Of a stretch of DNA of 34,396 nucleotides, positions 1 to 34,396 are shown piece by piece. Source of the stretch: Chlorobiota bacterium (lineage in GTDB: Bacteria > Bacteroidota > Bacteroidia > Flavobacteriales > Flavobacteriaceae); the NCBI GenBank assembly GCA_013153655.1, contig JAADEB010000059.1, forward strand, positions 1 through 34,396, in the 5' to 3' direction. Numbering within the stretch: position 1 is the stretch's first letter; the number at the start of each line of letters is the position of its first letter. Below the pieces are notes generated by a model, which saw only the letters and a program-made list of their open reading frames with translations, had not been told where the DNA came from and made no database searches. Position numbers and translations under genes: made by a program.

Positions 1-2
1 AC

Positions 3-326
3 TTAGCTGGCGAAAAAACATTTTTTATGCAAAACCGGAAATTGGAAGGCCGGGTCAAATGGCATAACCGGAAATGGGACGTGATGTTTTCCATACAAAA
101 ATTATGGTTGCAATCCGGCTCGATACTTTCACATCCTGTTATTCCTTCCTTTAAAACGGTTTACAAACCTAAGGCGGCTTTTGAAATATATTTGGAAGCT
201 TTTGATTTCTTTCATTTAGACACATGGCGTATCAACCGTTTTGAAACTACGGATTTATATTACCAAATCGCCCGCGAATGGCATCAGGCCGGATATATTC
301 TTCTGGGATTCAAGTGGAGTTATTAA
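3..326 (+). CDS. C-terminal fragment of a TonB-receptor-like outer-membrane barrel protein, cut by the window edge; paralogue of the 2391..4934 protein
   Basis: Frame is open to the left window edge. The C-terminus ..YYQIAREWHQAGYILLGFKWSY* resembles the C-terminus of the 2391..4934 protein (..YYEVETFPVFKGYILAGMRWKL*). Confidence 0.6.
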   Translation, partial: LAGEKTFFMQNRKLEGRVKWHNRKWDVMFSIQKLWLQSGSILSHPVIPSFKTVYKPKAAFEIYLEAFDFFHLDTWRINRFETTDLYYQIAREWHQAGYILLGFKWSY

Positions 327-440
327 GAAATCAGGTTATTCAGATTTATGGCAAGTCCTATAAAATATACAATCTTCTTTGCAAATATTGAGCCTCCGGA
401 AATTTACGTTCCATGGGATATATAATTAAATACTATATGA

Positions 441-734
441 ACCCCGGCGGGATTCAGCGAGTTTATCGAAACGGGTTGGAGTTTAGGGGGCGGATATACG
501 CCGGAAATTCCCTTGCCGTTCGGTCCTTCGGAATATATGGGTTTGCCGGGCATGGTGTTGGATGCCTATCATACACGCCGTCACAGGCGATTTCGTGCTA
601 CGGAAATACGTACCAATGTCCCGGTGGAAGTCGTGATGCCCGAGGAAGGCAAAATTATTTCCCGGGAAGAAGCCGGGAAGTGGTTTGCACAAAAATGGTC
701 CGGGTTTATGCAAAAGGCTTCTAAGCGGGATTGA
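441..734 (+). pseudogene. Remnant of a GLPGLI-family protein; N-terminal half missing
   Basis: In-frame translation PAGFSEFIETGWSLGGGYTPEIPLPFGPSEYMGLPGMVLDAYHTRRHRRFRATEIRTNVPVEVVMPEEGKIISREEAGKWFAQKW.. carries the TPEIP..GP..Y.GLPG signature. An in-frame TGA sits at 438-440 and there is no upstream N-terminal domain. Confidence 0.65.
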
Positions 735-762
735 GAGGAACCGGCTATATAGCTTTTTTTCT

Positions 763-812
763 AAAACTCCGGATAAAAGCTGAATCCTAAATAACGACCT
801 TTTTGTAAAATT
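763..812 (-). pseudogene. Short relic of an outer-membrane barrel C-terminus (..LQKGRYLGFSFYPEF*)
   Basis: Minus-strand translation resembles the C-terminus of the 8193..11285 protein (YRKWSFGFSFYPGF*). CCGGATAAAAGCTGAATCC is identical at 769..787 and 8201..8219. Confidence 0.5.
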
Positions 813-1079
813 TATCATATAAGCCGCTTTATTTTTCCTTCTTAATGATTTGTCTTTGCATGAACTGTTAATAGAATTAATTTATTGTTACAGAAATTAA
901 CTATAATTTTGAAATGAGAGTTTTTGCCTGAGGATTTATGAATTAAAAGATGGTCAAATCGCATTATATTATGCATATTTCAATTAAAAAATTTATTCTT
1001 ACATGCGCTAAATCATTTAAAATATCAAAATATTTGACCATTAACAAAAATTTATCATGAAAACACTTGACTCGTATCG

Positions 1080-1095
1080 TTTTTTTTTTTTTTTT
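1080..1095 (+). repeat. Homopolymeric T tract (16 nt)
   Basis: Direct read: sixteen consecutive T residues. Confidence 0.9.
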
Positions 1096-1100
1096 GTATA

Positions 1101-1146
1101 GAATTTCATGTTTGTACCGAAGGCGCCACGTACAAACATGAAATTC
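1101..1146. repeat. Perfect 17-bp inverted repeat with a 12-nt loop
   Basis: GAATTTCATGTTTGTAC (1101..1117) and GTACAAACATGAAATTC (1130..1146) are exact reverse complements. Confidence 0.9.
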
Positions 1147-1293
1147 CAAGCTCGGCCGAGCATCGACATACCGCTGCAAGATGCGGAAGTATAACCTAAC
1201 TGTCCGGAAGCAGGCAGGCATCATACCGCCGGGCATGGTGGGATATAAGTGATGCGTTTTGGAAAATTTTATTAACTTTAAAAATTTAGAACG

Positions 1294-1656
1294 ATGAAAA
1301 AGTTTTATTTCATTCTATTATTTTTATTTGCAGGAGTTATGATAAATATAACAAGTTGCAAAAAAGCTTCTGAAACCAAAGAAATTACCTCTTTGGAACA
1401 GGCAATAAAGGCTTTGAATGATCACAACATGATTATTATAAAACATGGGGAAGGATACCTGACTTTTGAAGTAAGAGAAAAACCGGTTGTTGATAATATA
1501 TACTTGGCAAAGGAAGAAAATGAACATAATTGTTATACAAAAGATCAAGATGAGTTCAAGGATTGTACCACTAAATTGTTGGATGCAGGATATTGCCTCA
1601 AAACTTATAAAGACGGAGATTATTATGTGGCAGATGTTATAGATTGCGATGATTAA
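1294..1656 (+). CDS. Small uncharacterised lipoprotein
   Basis: 120-aa ORF with signal peptide and lipobox (MKKFYFILLFLFAGVMINITSCKK), followed by an intrinsic terminator. Confidence 0.75.
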   Translation: MKKFYFILLFLFAGVMINITSCKKASETKEITSLEQAIKALNDHNMIIIKHGEGYLTFEVREKPVVDNIYLAKEENEHNCYTKDQDEFKDCTTKLLDAGYCLKTYKDGDYYVADVIDCDD

Positions 1657-1659
1657 AAG

Positions 1660-1697
1660 AAAAGTTGCCGGAGGCAGGTAACTTCGGCAACTTTTTT
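1660..1697 (+). terminator. Intrinsic terminator
   Basis: AAAGTTGCCG..CGGCAACTTT hairpin followed by a T run, directly after the 1294..1656 stop. Confidence 0.8.
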
Positions 1698-1742
1698 ATA
1701 ATTTTTTTGTAATTTAGTGCATTATAAAGTACAAAGTTTATT

Positions 1743-2390
1743 ATGAGGTATTTTTTTTTCATAGGAATATGGCTTCATTTATTTACGGCTGATACGACCT
1801 GCTATTCATCGTATATTTTAAAATATCATTATGTAGACACTCGGGTGGATAAGTTGTTATTGGAATTGGCCGATAATGAAGCTTTCAACAAAGAGGCTAT
1901 GCTCAAACGTCGAGATAAGGATTTTGAATTGTTTGTCAATGATTCCTGTGTATTATTTAAGGGGGCGGACAAAGAATTTTTTCGTCATAATAAAAAAAAG
2001 ATACTTTTGAAAACTTTTATATGGTACGATCGTAAAAATGATATGAAAGAAAAAATAGTGGTCTCATATCCCTATTTTATGCCTACATGGACCATATACC
2101 CGGAAATATTAGAATGGAAGGATTATAAAGTATATAAAGCCTTGTATAAAGACAGGAAAACTGTTGCCTGGTTTTCTCCGGATATTCCCTTGGATGGCGG
2201 GCCGGAATTTTTCCATGGATTACCCGGTGCTATTGTAAAATTGGAAAAGCCCAATGGAATTGTCTATACGCTTGTTTCTATAAAAAAAGAAAAAAAACCT
2301 TTTGGCCGCCCGCAAGGCGACCGCTACATGACCCGGAAAGAATTTTCGGCTTTTTTGGAAGCTCATGGAGTTGCCGTACCCGGAAATTAA
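1743..2390 (+). CDS. GLPGLI family protein
   Basis: 215-aa ORF with WFSPDIPLDGGPEFFHGLPGAIVKLE motif and signal-peptide-like N-terminus. Confidence 0.85.
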   Translation: MRYFFFIGIWLHLFTADTTCYSSYILKYHYVDTRVDKLLLELADNEAFNKEAMLKRRDKDFELFVNDSCVLFKGADKEFFRHNKKKILLKTFIWYDRKNDMKEKIVVSYPYFMPTWTIYPEILEWKDYKVYKALYKDRKTVAWFSPDIPLDGGPEFFHGLPGAIVKLEKPNGIVYTLVSIKKEKKPFGRPQGDRYMTRKEFSAFLEAHGVAVPGN

Positions 2391-4934
2391 ATGGAAATGA
2401 AGCGATGGGGTCTATGGTGTGTTATGACATGTGTATATGGATTTTCGTATGCGCAAATTTCATTAAGCGGACAAGTATCAAATTCCTCTGGTCAGTCTTT
2501 GCCCCAAGTACAAGTAGTGGTATTTGATACTTTGATGCGTATTCATCATTATACAGGCACCGATAGTGCAGGAGTGTTTTATCTTACATTGCCTCCCGGT
2601 CATTATTATGTTTCCTTTCGTAAAATGGACTATCAATCCATGGATACTTTGGTGTATTTGAGGCAATCATCAAATTGGCAAATCATTTTGGGACACGATA
2701 AGTATAATGTAGAACAATTGCAGCAAATAGTTTTTGAAATACCGGATCATGCCACACGTCGATTAACCGATACTATATATTTCAAAACGGACAGCATACG
2801 GGACGGAACGGAAAAAAACATGGGCGAGTTATTGGATAAATTACCCGGATTGGAAGTTAGAAATGGCCGCTTGTATGCCTATGGAAATCCGGTTACGGAG
2901 TTGTTGATCGAAGGAAAGAATGTTTTTGGTAGAAATCAGAAAATTCCTTTGAGCGAATTACCTGCCGAAATGATAAAATCCGTAGAATATTATGAAAATT
3001 ACAATGATCCGTTGAATCCGGCTTCGGAAGGTTTTTTTTCGGGTAAATCGGCAGTAAATGTATTGTTGAAAAAAAATTATATCAATCGTTGGACCGGACG
3101 CTTGGAAGCCGGCTTGGGATATCCATCCAAAAGAGCTACGCAAAATCACCTGTTTCGGTTTGGGAGTGGCGCTAATCTTTTTTTGATGTTGCATTACAAC
3201 AATATTCAGAAGCAAGTTTTGGATATACAGGATTTATATACGCTTACGGGTACTTTGCCTCTTTCGGCCACTGATTGGATTACCCAAAATGAAAAAGGTA
3301 CAACGGAAAGCATGCGTTTGTTGCCTGCTATACATTATTTTTATGAAAATCCCGGAAAATACCGTTTCAAATCTTATGGCATTTATTACGGCTTGTCTGA
3401 TATAACTCGGAGGACCAAATACAGATATTATTACACGGATACTGTGCCATTGATTTGGAAAGCGGATCATTTACGTAGGGGAGGTTCCGCATTGGGCGGT
3501 TGGCAATATACTTTCAAAACACATCGAAATGCTACCTGGCTATGGGAGGGATATTTAATGAAAAGTATTTATCATCAAAAAGGAAATGAATTTTGGAATA
3601 ATAAACCATGGAATACTGACGGGCAATTACATAATGTTTCAGGCCGTATAGAGACCCGTTACAGTTTGCGGAAAGGTAAATGGTTATGGGAATGGAAAGG
3701 ATTATGGGAAGGAGGAACGGATAATCATAATGTTTTGTTTGATAATGCCGATAATCGTCTGCTATCCTTATCAGCCATCCAAAAAAATATTTGGGAAGGA
3801 GGTCTTAGTGTCAAACGCCGTATGAGTTTGCGTTTATTTCTGTTTGGTAAAACCCGTTTCCGTATCGAGGATAAAAGGAATTCGTATTCTTGTGCAGGGA
3901 TTTATGACATGGATAATGAATATATTAATAAAAAGCGAATTTGGAGTACGCAAATGGGAGGTTTATATTTTCGGGGCAGGTGGATTTTGGATGCTTCCCT
4001 GACCACATGGTATGTAAGCATGAATGACAATTTCCGGATGAAGAGGGATTACTTTATGGGATTACCTTCTTTACGACTGACCTATCGGACGTCTGTTTGG
4101 CATTTATTGTACCAATGGTCACATGAAGCATCGATTGCCGGAGATACTTATTTTGTTCCTTTCGGCATAATGAATAATCCTTATGAGCTATTTACCGGAA
4201 ATTCGAGTTTGGAAAATGTTTCAAAAAAAAATTATCACCGGTTGCGTATGGCCTATTTGAAACCTTCTTCATTATGGGATGAATTGACATGGGAAATGAA
4301 ATATGCCGATACGTATTTACCTGCTATGTGGGCCGTTACCGGAGACACTACAATGATGAGATATAAAGCAGTGGGGGGCGGATGGCAATCGAGTGATGAA
4401 ATAATGTTTCGTTGGCGAAAAAAAATCAAACGATGGCAAGGGGATTACCGGTTTATTTATACGAATAATCATACACGCCAAATTTCAGGGGATACATCCG
4501 AATTAAAATATATTCAGGGATTAGGATATGCAAGACGTCATCGATTAAAAATTTCGTATCTGCATGACAAATTCAAGTCTATTGTCAGCTTCCACTATGG
4601 CGTTTTAAATTACAAAACAAATATGTTTTCTGGAAAGTATTATCGTTACGGTTGGAAATGGAAATTGATTTATATGGGGAATACTTGGGGTATGGAAGTG
4701 TTGTGGGACCATAAATATTTACAATATTCATCCATGATATATATGATCAATATTCCTTCCATGAGTGTCTATTATCGTCTTAATGATAAATGGTTTTTTG
4801 TGCAATGGCAAAATATGCTTCATTTCTATCCCGGAATGGAAATGAGCACACAATACTTTGATTCTTATTATGAAGTAGAAACCTTTCCGGTTTTTAAGGG
4901 GTATATATTGGCAGGTATGCGTTGGAAGTTATAA
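2391..4934 (+). CDS. Carboxypeptidase-regulatory-like / TonB-receptor-like outer-membrane protein
   Basis: 847-aa ORF. N-terminal ISLSGQVSNSSGQSLPQVQVVVFDT.. beta-sandwich, plug-like LPGLEVRNGRLYAYGNPVTELLIEGK, then a long aromatic-rich barrel. Start codon directly follows the upstream stop. Confidence 0.85.
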   Translation: MEMKRWGLWCVMTCVYGFSYAQISLSGQVSNSSGQSLPQVQVVVFDTLMRIHHYTGTDSAGVFYLTLPPGHYYVSFRKMDYQSMDTLVYLRQSSNWQIILGHDKYNVEQLQQIVFEIPDHATRRLTDTIYFKTDSIRDGTEKNMGELLDKLPGLEVRNGRLYAYGNPVTELLIEGKNVFGRNQKIPLSELPAEMIKSVEYYENYNDPLNPASEGFFSGKSAVNVLLKKNYINRWTGRLEAGLGYPSKRATQNHLFRFGSGANLFLMLHYNNIQKQVLDIQDLYTLTGTLPLSATDWITQNEKGTTESMRLLPAIHYFYENPGKYRFKSYGIYYGLSDITRRTKYRYYYTDTVPLIWKADHLRRGGSALGGWQYTFKTHRNATWLWEGYLMKSIYHQKGNEFWNNKPWNTDGQLHNVSGRIETRYSLRKGKWLWEWKGLWEGGTDNHNVLFDNADNRLLSLSAIQKNIWEGGLSVKRRMSLRLFLFGKTRFRIEDKRNSYSCAGIYDMDNEYINKKRIWSTQMGGLYFRGRWILDASLTTWYVSMNDNFRMKRDYFMGLPSLRLTYRTSVWHLLYQWSHEASIAGDTYFVPFGIMNNPYELFTGNSSLENVSKKNYHRLRMAYLKPSSLWDELTWEMKYADTYLPAMWAVTGDTTMMRYKAVGGGWQSSDEIMFRWRKKIKRWQGDYRFIYTNNHTRQISGDTSELKYIQGLGYARRHRLKISYLHDKFKSIVSFHYGVLNYKTNMFSGKYYRYGWKWKLIYMGNTWGMEVLWDHKYLQYSSMIYMINIPSMSVYYRLNDKWFFVQWQNMLHFYPGMEMSTQYFDSYYEVETFPVFKGYILAGMRWKL

Positions 4935-4950
4935 TTAAAAATTCATTCAG

Positions 4951-5697
4951 GTGATGAGATACTTTTACATATTTTTTTTCCTTTGGCTAATCCGGCCGGC
5001 ATTGGCACAACAAGCAGACGTTGCACCAAAGAATGATTCCCTTATATTATACCGTTTGGATACCATCAGGTTGGATCAAACCATACGGAAAAGAAATCTA
5101 AACCGCTTGTTTCGCAGGCCGGTTTTTAATCTGTATCCGGGAGATATAATAATTATTGAATATCCTAAAAAAGAACGGCCGTACAAACAAGAAGTGCTTA
5201 TCAAATACGAAAACAGGGTACCCAATACGAATATGGATTATTTAATAGCCATTTACATGACCAACAGGATGATTACAAAAGATTATAAAATACTTACAGA
5301 TTCAATTTTTACCCATGGAATTTTACTGTTTAATAGAGGGACCGTCAATTTGGAAAAAAATGTTTTTAAATATACAGACCATGCTTCACTTTTGGGTTGG
5401 AGTTCGGATAAGAATGTACATATTGTACACTATATAAGTAATTTTGATGGTTCGTTAGACAAAATTCCTTCCGATAGTTTAAGGAATTTGATAAAGCAAT
5501 ATCCTGCCATTCATACCGTATATCCGTTTCAAAGTTTATTGTTTTTTAAAACGGTAAAGAAGAAAAAATCTACGCCATATAAAATATATGTGATGCGTCC
5601 CGGCTATCTGATGCCACGCCCTATCGAAGAAGTCATAAGAGAACGCTATCCATGGGTAAAAAAAGACTATACGATCAAGTTATTTTTAATTCAGTAA
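4951..5697 (+). CDS. Uncharacterised secreted protein, third gene of the GLPGLI/OMP cluster
   Basis: 248-aa ORF with signal peptide (MMRYFYIFFFLWLIRPALAQ), 16 bp after the OMP gene and on the same strand. Confidence 0.75.
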   Translation: MMRYFYIFFFLWLIRPALAQQADVAPKNDSLILYRLDTIRLDQTIRKRNLNRLFRRPVFNLYPGDIIIIEYPKKERPYKQEVLIKYENRVPNTNMDYLIAIYMTNRMITKDYKILTDSIFTHGILLFNRGTVNLEKNVFKYTDHASLLGWSSDKNVHIVHYISNFDGSLDKIPSDSLRNLIKQYPAIHTVYPFQSLLFFKTVKKKKSTPYKIYVMRPGYLMPRPIEEVIRERYPWVKKDYTIKLFLIQ

Positions 5698-5855
5698 AAA
5701 AAAAAAGCAAAAACATGCTTCCACTCGCCTTTTCCCGGGATGAGAAAATCCGGCAAAAAACGAATATTCTGCTGAAATTGAAGACAAGCACTTTTATAGT
5801 TTCTATGAGATTTTATTATTGCGTATTCATTAAGTTCCTAATTTGAAATTTTTAT

Positions 5856-5863
5856 TAAATTTG
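5856..5863 (+). promoter_or_regulatory. Putative Bacteroidota -7 element TAAATTTG
   Basis: Exact TAnnTTTG match upstream of the 5921 gene; -33 box not clear. Confidence 0.4.
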
Positions 5864-5920
5864 AAAATAATAATAATTTAACATAACATTGGAATCTTAC
5901 AAAACGAACCATTAAACATT

Positions 5921-7615
5921 ATGCCACGCCCTACCGTTTACCTGCTGTTCTTGTTGTTTCCCCTGTTGGTGCGGGGGCAATATACCGCCATTCCCGATTC
6001 CGTTTTCGAGCAAAAACTCATTGATTTGGGCATTGACAGCGACGGCACGGTAAACGGACGGGTGCTTACTTCGGATGTGGCAAGAGTGCGCACACTTCAA
6101 TTAATTAGGGGAACCGGAGGTTACATCCATGATCTGACCGGAATAGAAGATTTTATCAATCTGGATACATTGATTTGCAACGATCATATTATCAGGCAAA
6201 TGGATTTGTCGCATAACACTTCCTTGAAATATTTGGATGTTTATCAAACGGGGCTTCACTCCTTGGACGTGAGTGCTTTAACGCAATTGGAATACTTGAA
6301 GTGCAGCAATGAAATGCATACCGATTATGTGTTCGACGGATTTAACCGGATCGATACCTTGGATTTGAGCAGAAACAGCCGGTTAAAAACGTTAATTACC
6401 AACGCTAATGGTTTGCATCATATCATCTTTCCCGGCAATCCGCGGCTTGAATATTTGGAAGCCGGCGCCAACCGTTTGGAACATATTGATTTTTCCGGGC
6501 AAAAACAACTGCGGAAATTAATTTTACTTACAAGCTATATGGGGGACACTTTGGATATTTCCGGCCTGTCGTCCTTGGAATATCTGGATGTGAATAAATG
6601 TGATTTGCGGCACATACGTTTCCCCGACACACAAACACTACGTTACTTGTTTCTCGGTTATTTTTATATGGGTTGGGAAAGGACGGAAGAATTCGACGGT
6701 GATAACCGTTTGCCCGATTTGGATTTAAGCAGATTTACGGAGTTGCGTGTGCTGGCGGCCCGTCAGATTGGACTCCGGTCCATTGATTTATCCTCCAATC
6801 CGGAATTGGAAATACTGAATGTTTCCAAAAATCCGCTTCATTCGTTGGATGTTTCCCGTAATATACATTTAAAGGATTTACATGCCGTATATAGCGGGTT
6901 GCATTCCTTGGATGTATCCCACAATCCGGAATTGGAAATATTAAGCATAAGAAATTTTGTTATTCCGGTGGAAAATCAGCAAATGCTTTATGAAAATCAT
7001 GTGGAAAACATAGATTTATCCCATAATTCACAGCTACAAACATTTCTTGCCGAGAACGTGGGTTTACAATCTTTGGATTTTTCTAATAATCCCGATATTG
7101 AAGAAGTGAGTATTTCCGAAAATCCCATACATTTTTTGGATTTAAGCGAAAATCCGCAAATGTATGCTTTATTCGCTATCCAAACGGAATTGGAATATCT
7201 CAACCTGAAAAACGGCCACAACCGCCGCTTGGAATACATGTATGCCACCCGCAATCCGTATCTTGAATGTATTCAAGTGGACGATACCGCCTATGCGTAC
7301 ACCCGGCCCCATTGGTACAAAGACAGTACGGCCGTATATGCAACGGAATGCAGCCGTCCCGGGGAAGAACCCGGCAATGACGTTGAAGATTTTGTCCTGT
7401 ATCCCGTGCCTGCCCATGACAGAATTTATTGGAAATTGCCGCCGGGCAAGGCGCTGCGCCGCCTTTCGGTGTATGATATGAGCGGCAAACATGTAGGTGA
7501 CGGCATGTCCGGAGCAGATTCATATTTTATCGGTGAATTGAGCAGTGGAATTTATCTGGTAACGATCATTTTTGCGGATGGAGAAAAAAAGATTAAGACG
7601 TTTGTTAAATACTAA
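5921..7615 (+). CDS. Leucine-rich-repeat surface protein with T9SS C-terminal sorting domain
   Basis: Repeated LxxLDLSxNxxL units (LRSIDLSSNPELEILNVSKNPLHSLDVSRN...) and C-terminal VLYPVPAHDRIYWKLPPGKALRRLSVYDMSGKHV..GIYLVTIIFADGEKKIKTFVKY. Confidence 0.88.
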   Translation: MPRPTVYLLFLLFPLLVRGQYTAIPDSVFEQKLIDLGIDSDGTVNGRVLTSDVARVRTLQLIRGTGGYIHDLTGIEDFINLDTLICNDHIIRQMDLSHNTSLKYLDVYQTGLHSLDVSALTQLEYLKCSNEMHTDYVFDGFNRIDTLDLSRNSRLKTLITNANGLHHIIFPGNPRLEYLEAGANRLEHIDFSGQKQLRKLILLTSYMGDTLDISGLSSLEYLDVNKCDLRHIRFPDTQTLRYLFLGYFYMGWERTEEFDGDNRLPDLDLSRFTELRVLAARQIGLRSIDLSSNPELEILNVSKNPLHSLDVSRNIHLKDLHAVYSGLHSLDVSHNPELEILSIRNFVIPVENQQMLYENHVENIDLSHNSQLQTFLAENVGLQSLDFSNNPDIEEVSISENPIHFLDLSENPQMYALFAIQTELEYLNLKNGHNRRLEYMYATRNPYLECIQVDDTAYAYTRPHWYKDSTAVYATECSRPGEEPGNDVEDFVLYPVPAHDRIYWKLPPGKALRRLSVYDMSGKHVGDGMSGADSYFIGELSSGIYLVTIIFADGEKKIKTFVKY

Positions 7616-7652
7616 ACAACTAATGGGAATTTTACTTGAAAATGATAAATCA

Positions 7653-8180
7653 ATGAAACAATTCATTCCTAAAACAGTTCTTTTTCTTTTGCCATTCTTG
7701 TCGGTTTTTATGTCATGCCACAGGACGGAACCCGTTGTTTCCCGGTGCGACACCACGGACTTGGGGTTGGATACTACTTTTCAATATTCCACATGGGATT
7801 TTAATGATTCCGGAGATGTTATAGGGGTAGATAAGTGGAAATGGGGGGTTAAAGGAGATACATTGATAATATGCGGAAATGAGGGGTTTGCATACGGTGA
7901 AGATTCCTATCAATATGGATTTTATTTCGTCCCCCATGACGCATGTATTGATTATGTTAAAACAAGTTTGGATTACATGTCGGATGAAATAATTATTGAT
8001 GCCAATACGGGAGAGGTCATCTCCGGTATTGATTACGAGGAATACACCGAAGGTCCTTTCCGGATACAGGAATATGAACCCGGTGTTCGTCTGGTGGCGC
8101 AAGTGGGTCCGCATCGTTTCTGGGTGGAATTTGAACGGGAAAATTGGTTTGACGCTTCGCACTGCGGGGCGCCGGAGTAG
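7653..8180 (+). CDS. Uncharacterised lipoprotein
   Basis: Within ORF 7572..8180. The likely start MKQFIPKTVLFLLPFLSVFMSCHR gives a lipoprotein signal. Confidence 0.7.
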   Translation: MKQFIPKTVLFLLPFLSVFMSCHRTEPVVSRCDTTDLGLDTTFQYSTWDFNDSGDVIGVDKWKWGVKGDTLIICGNEGFAYGEDSYQYGFYFVPHDACIDYVKTSLDYMSDEIIIDANTGEVISGIDYEEYTEGPFRIQEYEPGVRLVAQVGPHRFWVEFERENWFDASHCGAPE

Positions 8181-17077: not shown

Positions 17078-17085
17078 ATACGGAT

Positions 17086-17114
17086 TTGGGATTTGGGATT
17101 TAGGATTTGGGTTT
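17086..17114. repeat. Word repeat GATTTGGGATTTAGGATTTGGG, inverse of the 14.9-kb words
   Basis: Direct read; reverse complement of the CCTAAATCCC words at 14891..14956. Confidence 0.7.
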
Positions 17115-17184
17115 CTTCGTTAAACCGTTTTCACAGAATCTCTATAAGAGTCGTATCGACCCGTGGAAAATCGTTAAATCGTTA

Positions 17185-17465
17185 CTTAACTAAATCAAAT
17201 AATTTTTAGTTCTTAATTGTTCACTATTCACTAAATCACTATTTTACTATTCACTCATAAAATTCTTAGTTCTTAGTTTTTAGTTATTAATTGTTCATTC
17301 AAAAAACTCCTTCATTCCTTCACTCTTTCACTCATCAAAATCCGTTTCCCTTGTCCCGAAAAACACATCCGTCATCCGTCTTTTCCAACTATTCAACAGA
17401 AACAGGAGATTCCTCAGTCGTAAACTCCTTCGGAATGACAAGAGTAACTATTTGATTTAGTTAAG
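17185..17465. mobile_element. Small element-like segment bounded by perfect 16-bp inverted repeats; no coding capacity
   Basis: CTTAACTAAATCAAAT (17185..17200) and ATTTGATTTAGTTAAG (17450..17465) are exact reverse complements. Confidence 0.4.
17406..17441 (-). repeat. REP-like unit (ATTCCGA..GGAATCTC family), copy B
   Basis: Minus strand TGTCATTCCGAAGGAGTTTACGACTGAGGAATCTC. Confidence 0.6.
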
Positions 17466-17489
17466 GTTAAAGTATCGATTTAACGATTC

Positions 17490-17750
17490 CACGATTTAAC
17501 GATTTAACAATTCTATTCAACTCTTCAACAATTCAACTATTCAACAAAAAAACATTTCCCGTTTCCCGAAAATCCACCGGTCATCCGTCATCCGTCATCC
17601 GTCTTTTCCAACTATTCACTAAATCGCTATCTCACTAATCCACTCAAAAAATCTTTTCAACTCTTCAACAATTCAACTTTTCAACAAAATTAACCGATTG
17701 CCCGATTCAACGTTTGCCCGATTCAACGGTTTAACAACACCCAGGTACCT
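17490..17750 (-). repeat. Composite modular intergenic repeat, inverted copy
   Basis: Read on the minus strand, 17490..17600 gives GGATGACGGATGACC, GGGAAACGGGAAATGTTTTTTTG, TTGAATAGTTGAATTGTTGAAGAGTTGAATAG, AATTGTTAAATCGTTAAATCG. This is the same word order as the 33.7-kb copy. Related words continue to ~17750. Confidence 0.75.
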
Positions 17751-17817: not shown

Positions 17818-17892
17818 GGGCTCTTAGCTCAGTTGGTTCAGAGCGCTGCCTTGACAGGGCAGAGGTCGGCGGTTCGAACCCGCCAGAGCCCA
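17818..17892 (+). tRNA. tRNA-Val(GAC)
   Basis: Cloverleaf GGGCTCT..AGAGCCC; anticodon arm CTGCC-TTGACAG-GGCAG; T arm GGTTCGAACCC. Confidence 0.93.
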
Positions 17893-24315: not shown

Positions 24316-24320
24316 CGGGT

Positions 24321-24394
24321 CGGGATGACAGGATTTGAACCTGCGACCCCCACGTCCCTAACGTGGTGCGCTAACCGGACTGCGCTACATCCCG
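24321..24394 (-). tRNA. tRNA-Pro with anticodon AGG
   Basis: Minus strand CGGGATGTAGCGCAGTCCGGTTAGCGCACCACGTTAGGGACGTGGGGGTCGCAGGTTCAAATCCTGTCATCCCG. Anticodon arm CCACG-TTAGGGA-CGTGG; acceptor CGGGATG/CATCCCG. Confidence 0.9.
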
Positions 24395-24552: not shown

Positions 24553-24946
24553 GGGGCCGACCGGTTTCGACGGCAAGGTTCTTTGACAAGTAAGCATGCC
24601 GAGGTTGGGTTTCCTCGTTAATCAAGCCCGACACAACAATAAATGGCGAAGCTAACTTTGCGCTCGCTGCCTAATTCCGAAGCACAGTAGGAATTAAGGC
24701 CAACGTTCCGGCAAGGCCGGAAGGCGGGCAGTCCCTCGGATGCCTTGGTTTACGGCGTCCGGTAAAGGGGCTCCGGAAAGTAAACCTGGGAACGGTGAGG
24801 CCGCTAAGCCGTTCCGAGAAAGCAGCGGCTAAGCCGTAAGTGGTCTGTCCGTGGACAGCTTACGGCCGACCATCAAACACGGACTAAGCATGTAGAAAGC
24901 TTGCCAAAATCTTGACCGGACGAGGGTTCGAGTCCCTCCGGCTCCA
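24553..24946 (+). ncRNA. ssrA: tmRNA (one-piece), tag peptide (A)GEANFALAA
   Basis: 5' GGGGCCGACCGGTTTCGAC and 3' GGTTCGAGTCCCTCCGGCTCCA form the tRNA-like domain. Tag ORF GGC GAA GCT AAC TTT GCG CTC GCT GCC TAA at 24645..24674. Confidence 0.95.
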
Positions 24947-24952
24947 CTACAG

Positions 24953-33441: not shown

Positions 33442-33540
33442 ACATTATAATTTATAATTATCCATCCACAAAGTTAATTAAAATATTGGTGATTTGCTGC
33501 GGGGGCGTTGAATCGTAGAATTGTGCAATCGGTAATTTTT

Positions 33541-33920
33541 GTTGAAGAGTTGAAAAGTTGAAAAGTTGAATGGATTGATTTACTTTTTGTTAAACCGTTA
33601 AATCGTGCAATCGTTAAATCGGATTGACTGATGACCGGTGACCGATGACGGATGTGTTTTTTGGGACACGGGGAACGGGAAACGGGGAATGTGTTTTTTC
33701 TGTTGAATAGTTGAAGGGTTGAAGAGTTGAATAGACTTGTTAAATCGTTAAATCGTGAAACCGTTAAATCGTTAAGTCGGTTTGACTGATGACCGGTGAC
33801 CGGTGCATTTTCGGAACAAGGGGAATGGGAAACGGGGAACATGTTTTTTCTGTTGAATAGTTGAAGGGTTGAAGAGTTGAATAGACTTGTTAAATCGTTA
33901 AATCGTTGAACCGTGCAATC
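33541..33920 (+). repeat. Composite modular intergenic repeat, ~150-bp period
   Basis: A 65-bp block TGTTTTTTCTGTTGAATAGTTGAAGGGTTGAAGAGTTGAATAGACTTGTTAAATCGTTAAATCGT is identical at 33692..33756 and 33842..33906; a degenerate copy lies at ~33541..33690. Confidence 0.88.
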
Positions 33921-33924
33921 GTAT

Positions 33925-33990
33925 GTCATTTCGACAGAAGACCGAAGGGAGCGACGCCGAGTCCGCCTCAGGCGGGAGAAATCTCCTTTT
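33925..33990 (+). repeat. REP-like unit (ATTTCGA..GAAATCTC family), copy C
   Basis: GTCATTTCGACAGAAGACCGAAGGGAGCGACGCCGAGTCCGCCTCAGGCGGGAGAAATCTCCTTTT, with internal CCGCC-TCA-GGCGG hairpin. Confidence 0.6.
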
Positions 33991-34087
33991 CGGGAAACTG
34001 AGAACGTAGAACGGGAAACGTGTTTTTTTGGGACGCAGACAACACGGGTATCACGGATTTTTTTTGGATTTTTTAATTGATGATTTC

Positions 34088-34220
34088 GTAGAGACGCCGT
34101 ATGTGGCGTATCGTTCTATCATTATATTCATGAATCATGTAGAGACGCGATGCATCGCGTCTCTACCATATGATGATTTGATGGTCGAAACGTAGAGACG
34201 CCGGTATACGGCGTCTTTAC
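34088..34220. repeat. Three tandemly spaced GTAGAGACGC palindromic units
   Basis: 34139..34166 GTAGAGACGCGATGCATCGCGTCTCTAC is a perfect 28-bp palindrome. 34192..34220 GTAGAGACGCCGGTATACGGCGTCTTTAC has one mismatch. 34088..34120 is a degenerate unit. Confidence 0.85.
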
Positions 34221-34284
34221 ATCCCGTTAATCGTTATACGTTTTCCATTTCACGTTTCCCGTTCCACGTTATCCGTTTACCGGT

Positions 34285-34396
34285 GCCGGCTTTGTGCGCC
34301 GGGTTTGCGCGAGGGGGCGAAGCGATATGCGCGGAGGCCTTGCCGAAGTTCCGGCCGCGGAATGCCGGCGGACAGAGGGGAGCCGCCATTCCGCGG
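34285..34396. other. GC-rich, hairpin-rich element truncated by the window end
   Basis: CCGGC..GCCGG hairpin (34286..34302) and CCGCGGAATG (34355..34364) / CATTCCGCGG (34387..34396) perfect inverted repeat in an otherwise AT-rich spacer. Confidence 0.55.

Follow-up and report, generated by a model that had tools for sequence, protein, structure and literature searches.

The 34,396-nt contig analysed here (the window) carries, upstream of yebC, a repeat composed of several short words, each of which is itself repeated in tandem. This raises the question of what kind of genetic element such a composite represents and how it came to lie there. The window belongs to a metagenome-assembled Bacteroidota genome (hereafter G000; 1.67 Mb in 174 contigs, 81% complete), in which gene calls were hexamer-based and serve to position gaps only.

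The left neighbour of the array is yebC (TACO1/YebC family, PF01709 and PF20772; 32686-33441, minus strand). The array uses four words, the 8-nt T word GTTGAANR, the 8-nt R word GTTAAAYC with its near variants, the 7-nt D word GRTGACC and a 7-nt G word resembling CGGRRAA. The word profiles combine near-invariant positions with one to three loose ones. At the yebC-proximal edge, 66 nt from the yebC start codon, the repeat search found a degenerate run of R-like words (33507-33535, plus strand). Ten runs then follow between 33541 and 33920, all on the plus strand, in the order T-R-D-G-T-R-D-G-T-R: four T (33541-33572), four R (33589-33620), three D (33630-33650), three G (33669-33689), four T (33702-33733), five R (33739-33778), two D (33788-33801), three G (33819-33839), four T (33852-33883) and four R units (33889-33920). 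From there, 476 nt remain to the end of the contig at 34396. A 65-nt core made up of the linker TTTTTTCT, the T run and the start of the R run is present at 33692-33756 and, identical and offset by exactly 150, at 33842-33906 (both plus strand). A sequence-only reading of this DNA had described the four words as blocks and the two cores 150 nt apart; all four words are present where it placed them, the cores were confirmed, and the description holds in every essential point. Its repeat unit of about 150 bp holds at this site, where TRF returns a period of 150 with 2.5 copies (score 497) and end-to-end comparison of the 150-nt copies that begin at 33658 and 33808 gives 73% identity. It does not extend to other loci, which mix words in variable numbers and in partly variable order: the period is a local duplication at the yebC site and no genome-wide constant. 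Inside the array, no Rfam match was obtained, and the RNA structure of the array alone is not above background (z = 0.37). The array is specific to G000, since in eight of eight congeners the sequence upstream of yebC is devoid of it, even though yebC itself is 84-90% identical.

Within G000, intergenic word arrays number well over a hundred, the yebC-side repeat being one of them. The composite query gave 90 matches in the whole genome, and the T-word pattern 231 sites vs. 15 for the reversed control pattern. These two counts and the profile search described below cover the whole genome; the remaining figures come from a 315-kb sample whose contigs were in part selected for having hits, which makes its densities upper estimates. 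In this sample, 188 runs of the four words are intergenic and 19 coding, and 39 of the 42 clusters with at least two words keep to one strand. Counted independently of the words, tandem segments of period 7 or 8 have an intergenic density of 3.23 per kb in the sample (an upper estimate) vs. 0.16-0.18 per kb at the yebC loci of congeners and other Bacteroidota, and control periods gave no excess comparable to that of period 7/8. A lack of further copies, together with random word order, would have refuted the sequence-only reading; neither is the case, and its hierarchy of micro-repeat, word, composite unit and array is supported genome-wide.

The defined word order that it had also claimed exists as a preference. 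Transitions along the cycle T>R>D>G>T number 74, vs. 37.3 ± 5.1 after shuffling within clusters (maximum of 5000 shuffles, 56), and comprise T>R (28), R>D (18), D>G (17) and G>T (11). The order is nonetheless not strict, with R>T (22) and T>D (10) occurring off the cycle. Linkers have preferred lengths, namely 5 nt for T>R, 10 for R>T, 9 or 13 for R>D, 10 for D>G and 12 for G>T, and run lengths peak at four units for T and R and at three for D.

The orientation of the words follows the gap rather than the genes. Words read from the flanking gene toward the gap centre, with 32 plus and 18 minus runs in left halves and 17 plus and 64 minus in right halves (odds ratio 6.7, runs within one gap not being independent). 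The same inward rule applies where a single flanking gene is present on the contig (35:15 and 25:7). The strand bias of segments detected de novo leads to the same result in tandem gaps and is weak or absent in divergent gaps. A rule based on gene direction, as for a 3'UTR or 5'UTR element, was rejected, no consistent relation being found. In many gaps of G000, words run in one direction only. A second composite array of the window fills the gap between a PfkB-family gene and a MacB/FtsX-family gene (17082-17735), with F words on the plus strand followed by T/R/T/G/D/T/R words on the minus strand. Beside yebC, the words at 33541-33920 are all on the plus strand and an opposite-strand partner exists for the G words only: the repeat search found a right arm of G words at 34251-34282 (minus strand), to which a left arm at 33991-34022 (plus strand) is 88% complementary.

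The same words recur in two of the eight congeners (G003 and G005), where they accompany genes of PF05635, the 23S rRNA intervening-sequence protein (IVP/S23), a four-helix bundle. In G003, the matches cluster in an operon of nuo type according to Pfam, several gaps of which contain near-identical PF05635 genes with R-word arrays pointing inward on both sides. In G005, T, D, G, and F words are found in gaps of the corresponding operon, some of them surrounding other IVP genes, and T and D words form the inverted arms of PF05635 genes. The gaps of G003 and G005 are completely different, and lie between genes that are about 96% identical (mostly 93-97% in DNA). In three further congeners (G002, G006, and G008), the genes are conserved and the corresponding gaps measure 2-21 nt or are replaced by overlaps. 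Gaps of these operons also hold other cargo, co-directional with the operon: in G005, an AT-rich (23% GC) 227-aa ORF with no Pfam match (L183 12818-13498) and, in G003, an ORF of about 330 aa (L181 12207-13208). In G000 itself, one IVP gene was found, elsewhere in the genome, with inverted arms of F words and no T, R, D, or G words. A stop-tolerant profile search for IVP remnants gave no gene beyond that one in this 81%-complete genome, and PF05635 is absent from the yebC-array gap and from the whole window.

The association of IVP genes with inverted arms extends well outside these genomes. PF05635 is present in 157 of 198 sampled Bacteroidota genomes, and the searches recovered as many as 17 copies from one genome. 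At 150 loci, 100 of them non-redundant, each left flank was compared by alignment with the reverse-complemented right flank. For the 100 non-redundant Bacteroidota loci, the median inverted match is 29.5 vs. 17 for swapped pairs, and 56% of them lie above the 99th percentile of swaps. None of 43 control genes exceeds the threshold; this control set is small, and swaps within one genome were therefore added. They gave 32 vs. 18, the locus's own pair being the better one at 73 of 78 loci. Arm words therefore characterise the locus rather than the genome. Arms have a period of 7 (29 arms) or 8 (14 arms), and G outnumbers C on their inward strand (465:181 in left arms). Loci of Y1_Tnp/RAYT genes, used as a positive control for inverted flanks, returned their REP-like palindromes and no period of 7 or 8; RAYTs were rejected on this ground as the driver of the words.

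Strong inverted matches were also obtained at 20 of 24 gammaproteobacterial IVP loci, at 17 of 22 loci from Desulfobacterota, Balneolota, Pseudomonas, Shewanella and others, and at 9 of 12 plasmid loci, mostly cyanobacterial. One locus of the gammaproteobacterial set (L506) contains 23S rRNA motifs and corresponds to a 23S-located IVP with heptamer arms. A plasmid IVP locus of Pseudanabaena (L396) is an exception to the inverted rule, with long (AAAAGCT)n and (AAAAGCC)n arrays that are mainly direct. Some cyanobacterial plasmid IVP genes lie inside CRISPR operons (L396, L401, and L404), either between cas6 and cas4 (in two genera) or between cas10 and cmr3.

In Bacteroidota, 60 of the 67 IVP loci with both neighbours called are situated between two genes of the IVP's own direction, the background of same-strand triples in G000 being 54%. 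IVP arms typically start within about 10 nt of the stop codon and end no more than about 15 nt before the next start. Words are shared by half of the IVP pairs at 60-70% protein identity and by all pairs above 70%, and distant IVPs share none, a pattern that would fit either common descent or a specificity of protein for word. Two relatives with solved structures (2gsc, which is XCC0516, and 2rld) have five chains each, the Xanthomonas IVP protein is described as a toroidal homopentamer (PMC4990558), and homology to Avd, a protein found in diversity-generating retroelements, has been noted (PMC10053308).

Mirror-image arrays, with a different word at each site, bracket IVP genes in many phyla, and suggest that the yebC-side repeat belongs, as an arm, to an intergenic genetic element about which little is known. 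IVP genes would be carried by elements whose paired word arms settle in gene gaps, rRNA intervening sequences (IVSs) representing one case of such elements. In G000, the arms would have multiplied without the gene, and local duplication together with the joining of arms made of different words would have produced the composites. This supposes that the elements move and that the IVP may act on the arms, in trans for copies lacking the gene. By analogy with the stem of the 23S rRNA IVS before the RNase III cut, the arms could pair with each other. Arms match each other and not other loci of the same cell, which points to arm pairing or joint copying rather than to one fixed binding motif.

On this basis, we propose, with a probability of roughly 55%, that the yebC-side array consists of stacked arms that derive from intergenic elements of the IVP type and have multiplied without the IVP gene. 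The figure is held at this level because the gap contains no IVP gene, the lone IVP gene of G000 bears other words (both of which count against an element here), many gaps have words in a single direction, and neither the density nor the stem tests gave support. In other genomes, array density is not predictable from the number of IVP copies (5.2 vs. 3.8 per 40 kb, p = 0.49). As for selection on an RNA stem, wobble-compatible mismatches number 40 vs. 61 of the opposite kind, and the sense duplex is not better than the antisense one. Neither a target-site duplication nor a recent transposition event was demonstrated. The general association of IVP genes with arms is firmer than its role at the window, because it rests on many genomes and on controls. 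A broader proposition, to which we give slightly less than an even chance, is that IVP genes and inverted locus-specific 7-8-nt arrays form one widespread class of intergenic elements in Bacteroidota, Cyanobacteria, Gemmatimonadota, Gammaproteobacteria, Desulfobacterota, and Balneolota. The 23S IVSs, the cyanobacterial and Xanthomonas heptamer arrays, and the composites of G000 would then be variants and IVP-less derivatives of this class, in parallel to RAYT/REPIN.

The best-surviving alternative, which we regard as rather unlikely, is that the arrays are neutral minisatellites, in which 7-8-nt words originate in intergenic DNA through polymerase slippage and are propagated by local recombination and gene conversion; the IVP link, though relevant at other loci, would have no bearing on them. 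The degenerate tandem units, the local 150-nt duplication and the species-specific presence would all be accounted for, as would the single IVP gene of G000 and an array density uncorrelated with IVP number. However, slippage predicts neither inward polarity nor a conserved word order with fixed-length linkers, nor does it predict the peaks in run length; that the same words form the arms of IVP genes in congeners is not predicted either.

Control of the translation or transcription of the neighbouring gene in cis, as proposed for the TAACTGA repeats of Beggiatoaceae (PMC4679880), is a good deal less probable. Arrays are often within about 60 nt of a gene edge, as such a role would have it, but starts and stops are flanked alike whatever the gene direction, and the array beside yebC is missing from all of the congeners in spite of the conservation of the gene. 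It is even less probable that an assembly artefact near the contig end inflated the number of units. In the sample, itself partly chosen by hits, 11 of 30 contig ends fall in arrays vs. 6.8% of interior windows, so that unit counts may be incorrect at individual sites; yet arrays with diverged sequence occur inside contigs at many independent sites, and in other genomes. The preference of contig ends for arrays also means that arrays and IVP genes may be undercounted, and it was not taken as evidence. Finally, quadruplex formation, as proposed for GGGAATC arrays (PMC4692102), is hardly credible here, for in spite of a G-rich inward strand and of GGG/GGGG in the G word, the T, R, and D words have no GGG tract and at least four such tracts within 150 nt of either side occur in only 4 of 61 IVP loci with arms.

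As a repeat class, the arrays of G000 belong with the known intergenic heptamer arrays, of which they form a variant built of several words. The closest likeness is to the GGGAATC and GGGGA(C/T)T arrays of Xanthomonas and Nostoc, which are dispersed intergenic tandem arrays of 7-nt units (the length of D and G here). In those arrays, four units are preferred, convergent pairs occur and the inward strand is G-rich (Rehm et al., 2015; PMC4692102); they are found no more than about 50 nt from the 5' neighbouring ORF, irrespective of its orientation, and differ between related species. The arrays of G000 share these traits, including the inward rule and runs of about four units. For the published arrays, no protein partner is reported, and their role remains to be elucidated (PMC4692102). 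In contrast, G000 joins several unrelated words, two of them of 8 nt, in a preferred order with fixed linkers, and most of its words cannot form quadruplexes. The TAACTGA direct repeats, which in Beggiatoaceae lie mostly just upstream of start codons, occur in some Bacteroidota mixed with other heptamers (PMC4679880). Like these repeats and the cyanobacterial STRRs, the arrays of G000 are intergenic and are places where contigs break; unlike the TAACTGA repeats, they use other words (the word profiles contain no TAACTGA unit) and both gene edges.

The IVP loci resemble the 23S rRNA IVSs with an IVP/S23p ORF in having a PF05635 gene between complementary arms. In Coxiella, the rRNA IVS, excised by RNase III, contains tandem heptamers GACAGAT in its left arm, before the S23p ORF (PMC4990558). 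Unlike these IVSs, the elements described here sit in gaps between protein genes, and the window array has no IVP gene. RAYT/REP systems (REPtrons; PMC3733652) likewise associate a single-gene family with inverted non-coding flanks that are also dispersed without the gene; REPs, however, are fixed palindromes, whereas IVP flanks are non-palindromic, locus-specific tandem arrays of 7-8 nt, and the proteins are unrelated. Apart from the heptamers noted in the IVS of Coxiella, the open-access literature, to which the survey extended, yielded no paper linking IVP genes with heptamer arms. IVP/S23 proteins lack a known function and heptamer arrays lack an explanation; the locus-specific pairing of IVP genes and arrays, seen with controls, joins both questions in one testable system. 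Word arrays also explain assembly breaks at these sites in such genomes.

Other features surround the arrays of the window. Directly after the yebC-side array, positions 33926-33990 hold a different dispersed element (TCATTTCGACAGAAGACCGAAGGGAG...CCGCCTCAGGCGG...GAGAAATCTCC), pieces of which, for example TCCGCCTCAGGCGGA, recur in several gaps of G000. The inverted G words bracket a stretch of about 229 nt (34019-34247) with three palindromes of the GTAGAGACGC type (GTAG). Copies of this stretch, 81-89% identical, are found at L160 11063-11289 and L147 6075-6287, and similar palindromes occur inside and beside a Y1_Tnp (RAYT-like) gene at L144 16234-16881. The window also contains a tmRNA (24553-24949) and two tRNA genes (17818-17892 and 24320-24394), one of which shares the gap of the second array. 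Its GC content is lower at 1-8000 (0.35-0.42) than in most of the rest (0.43-0.51).
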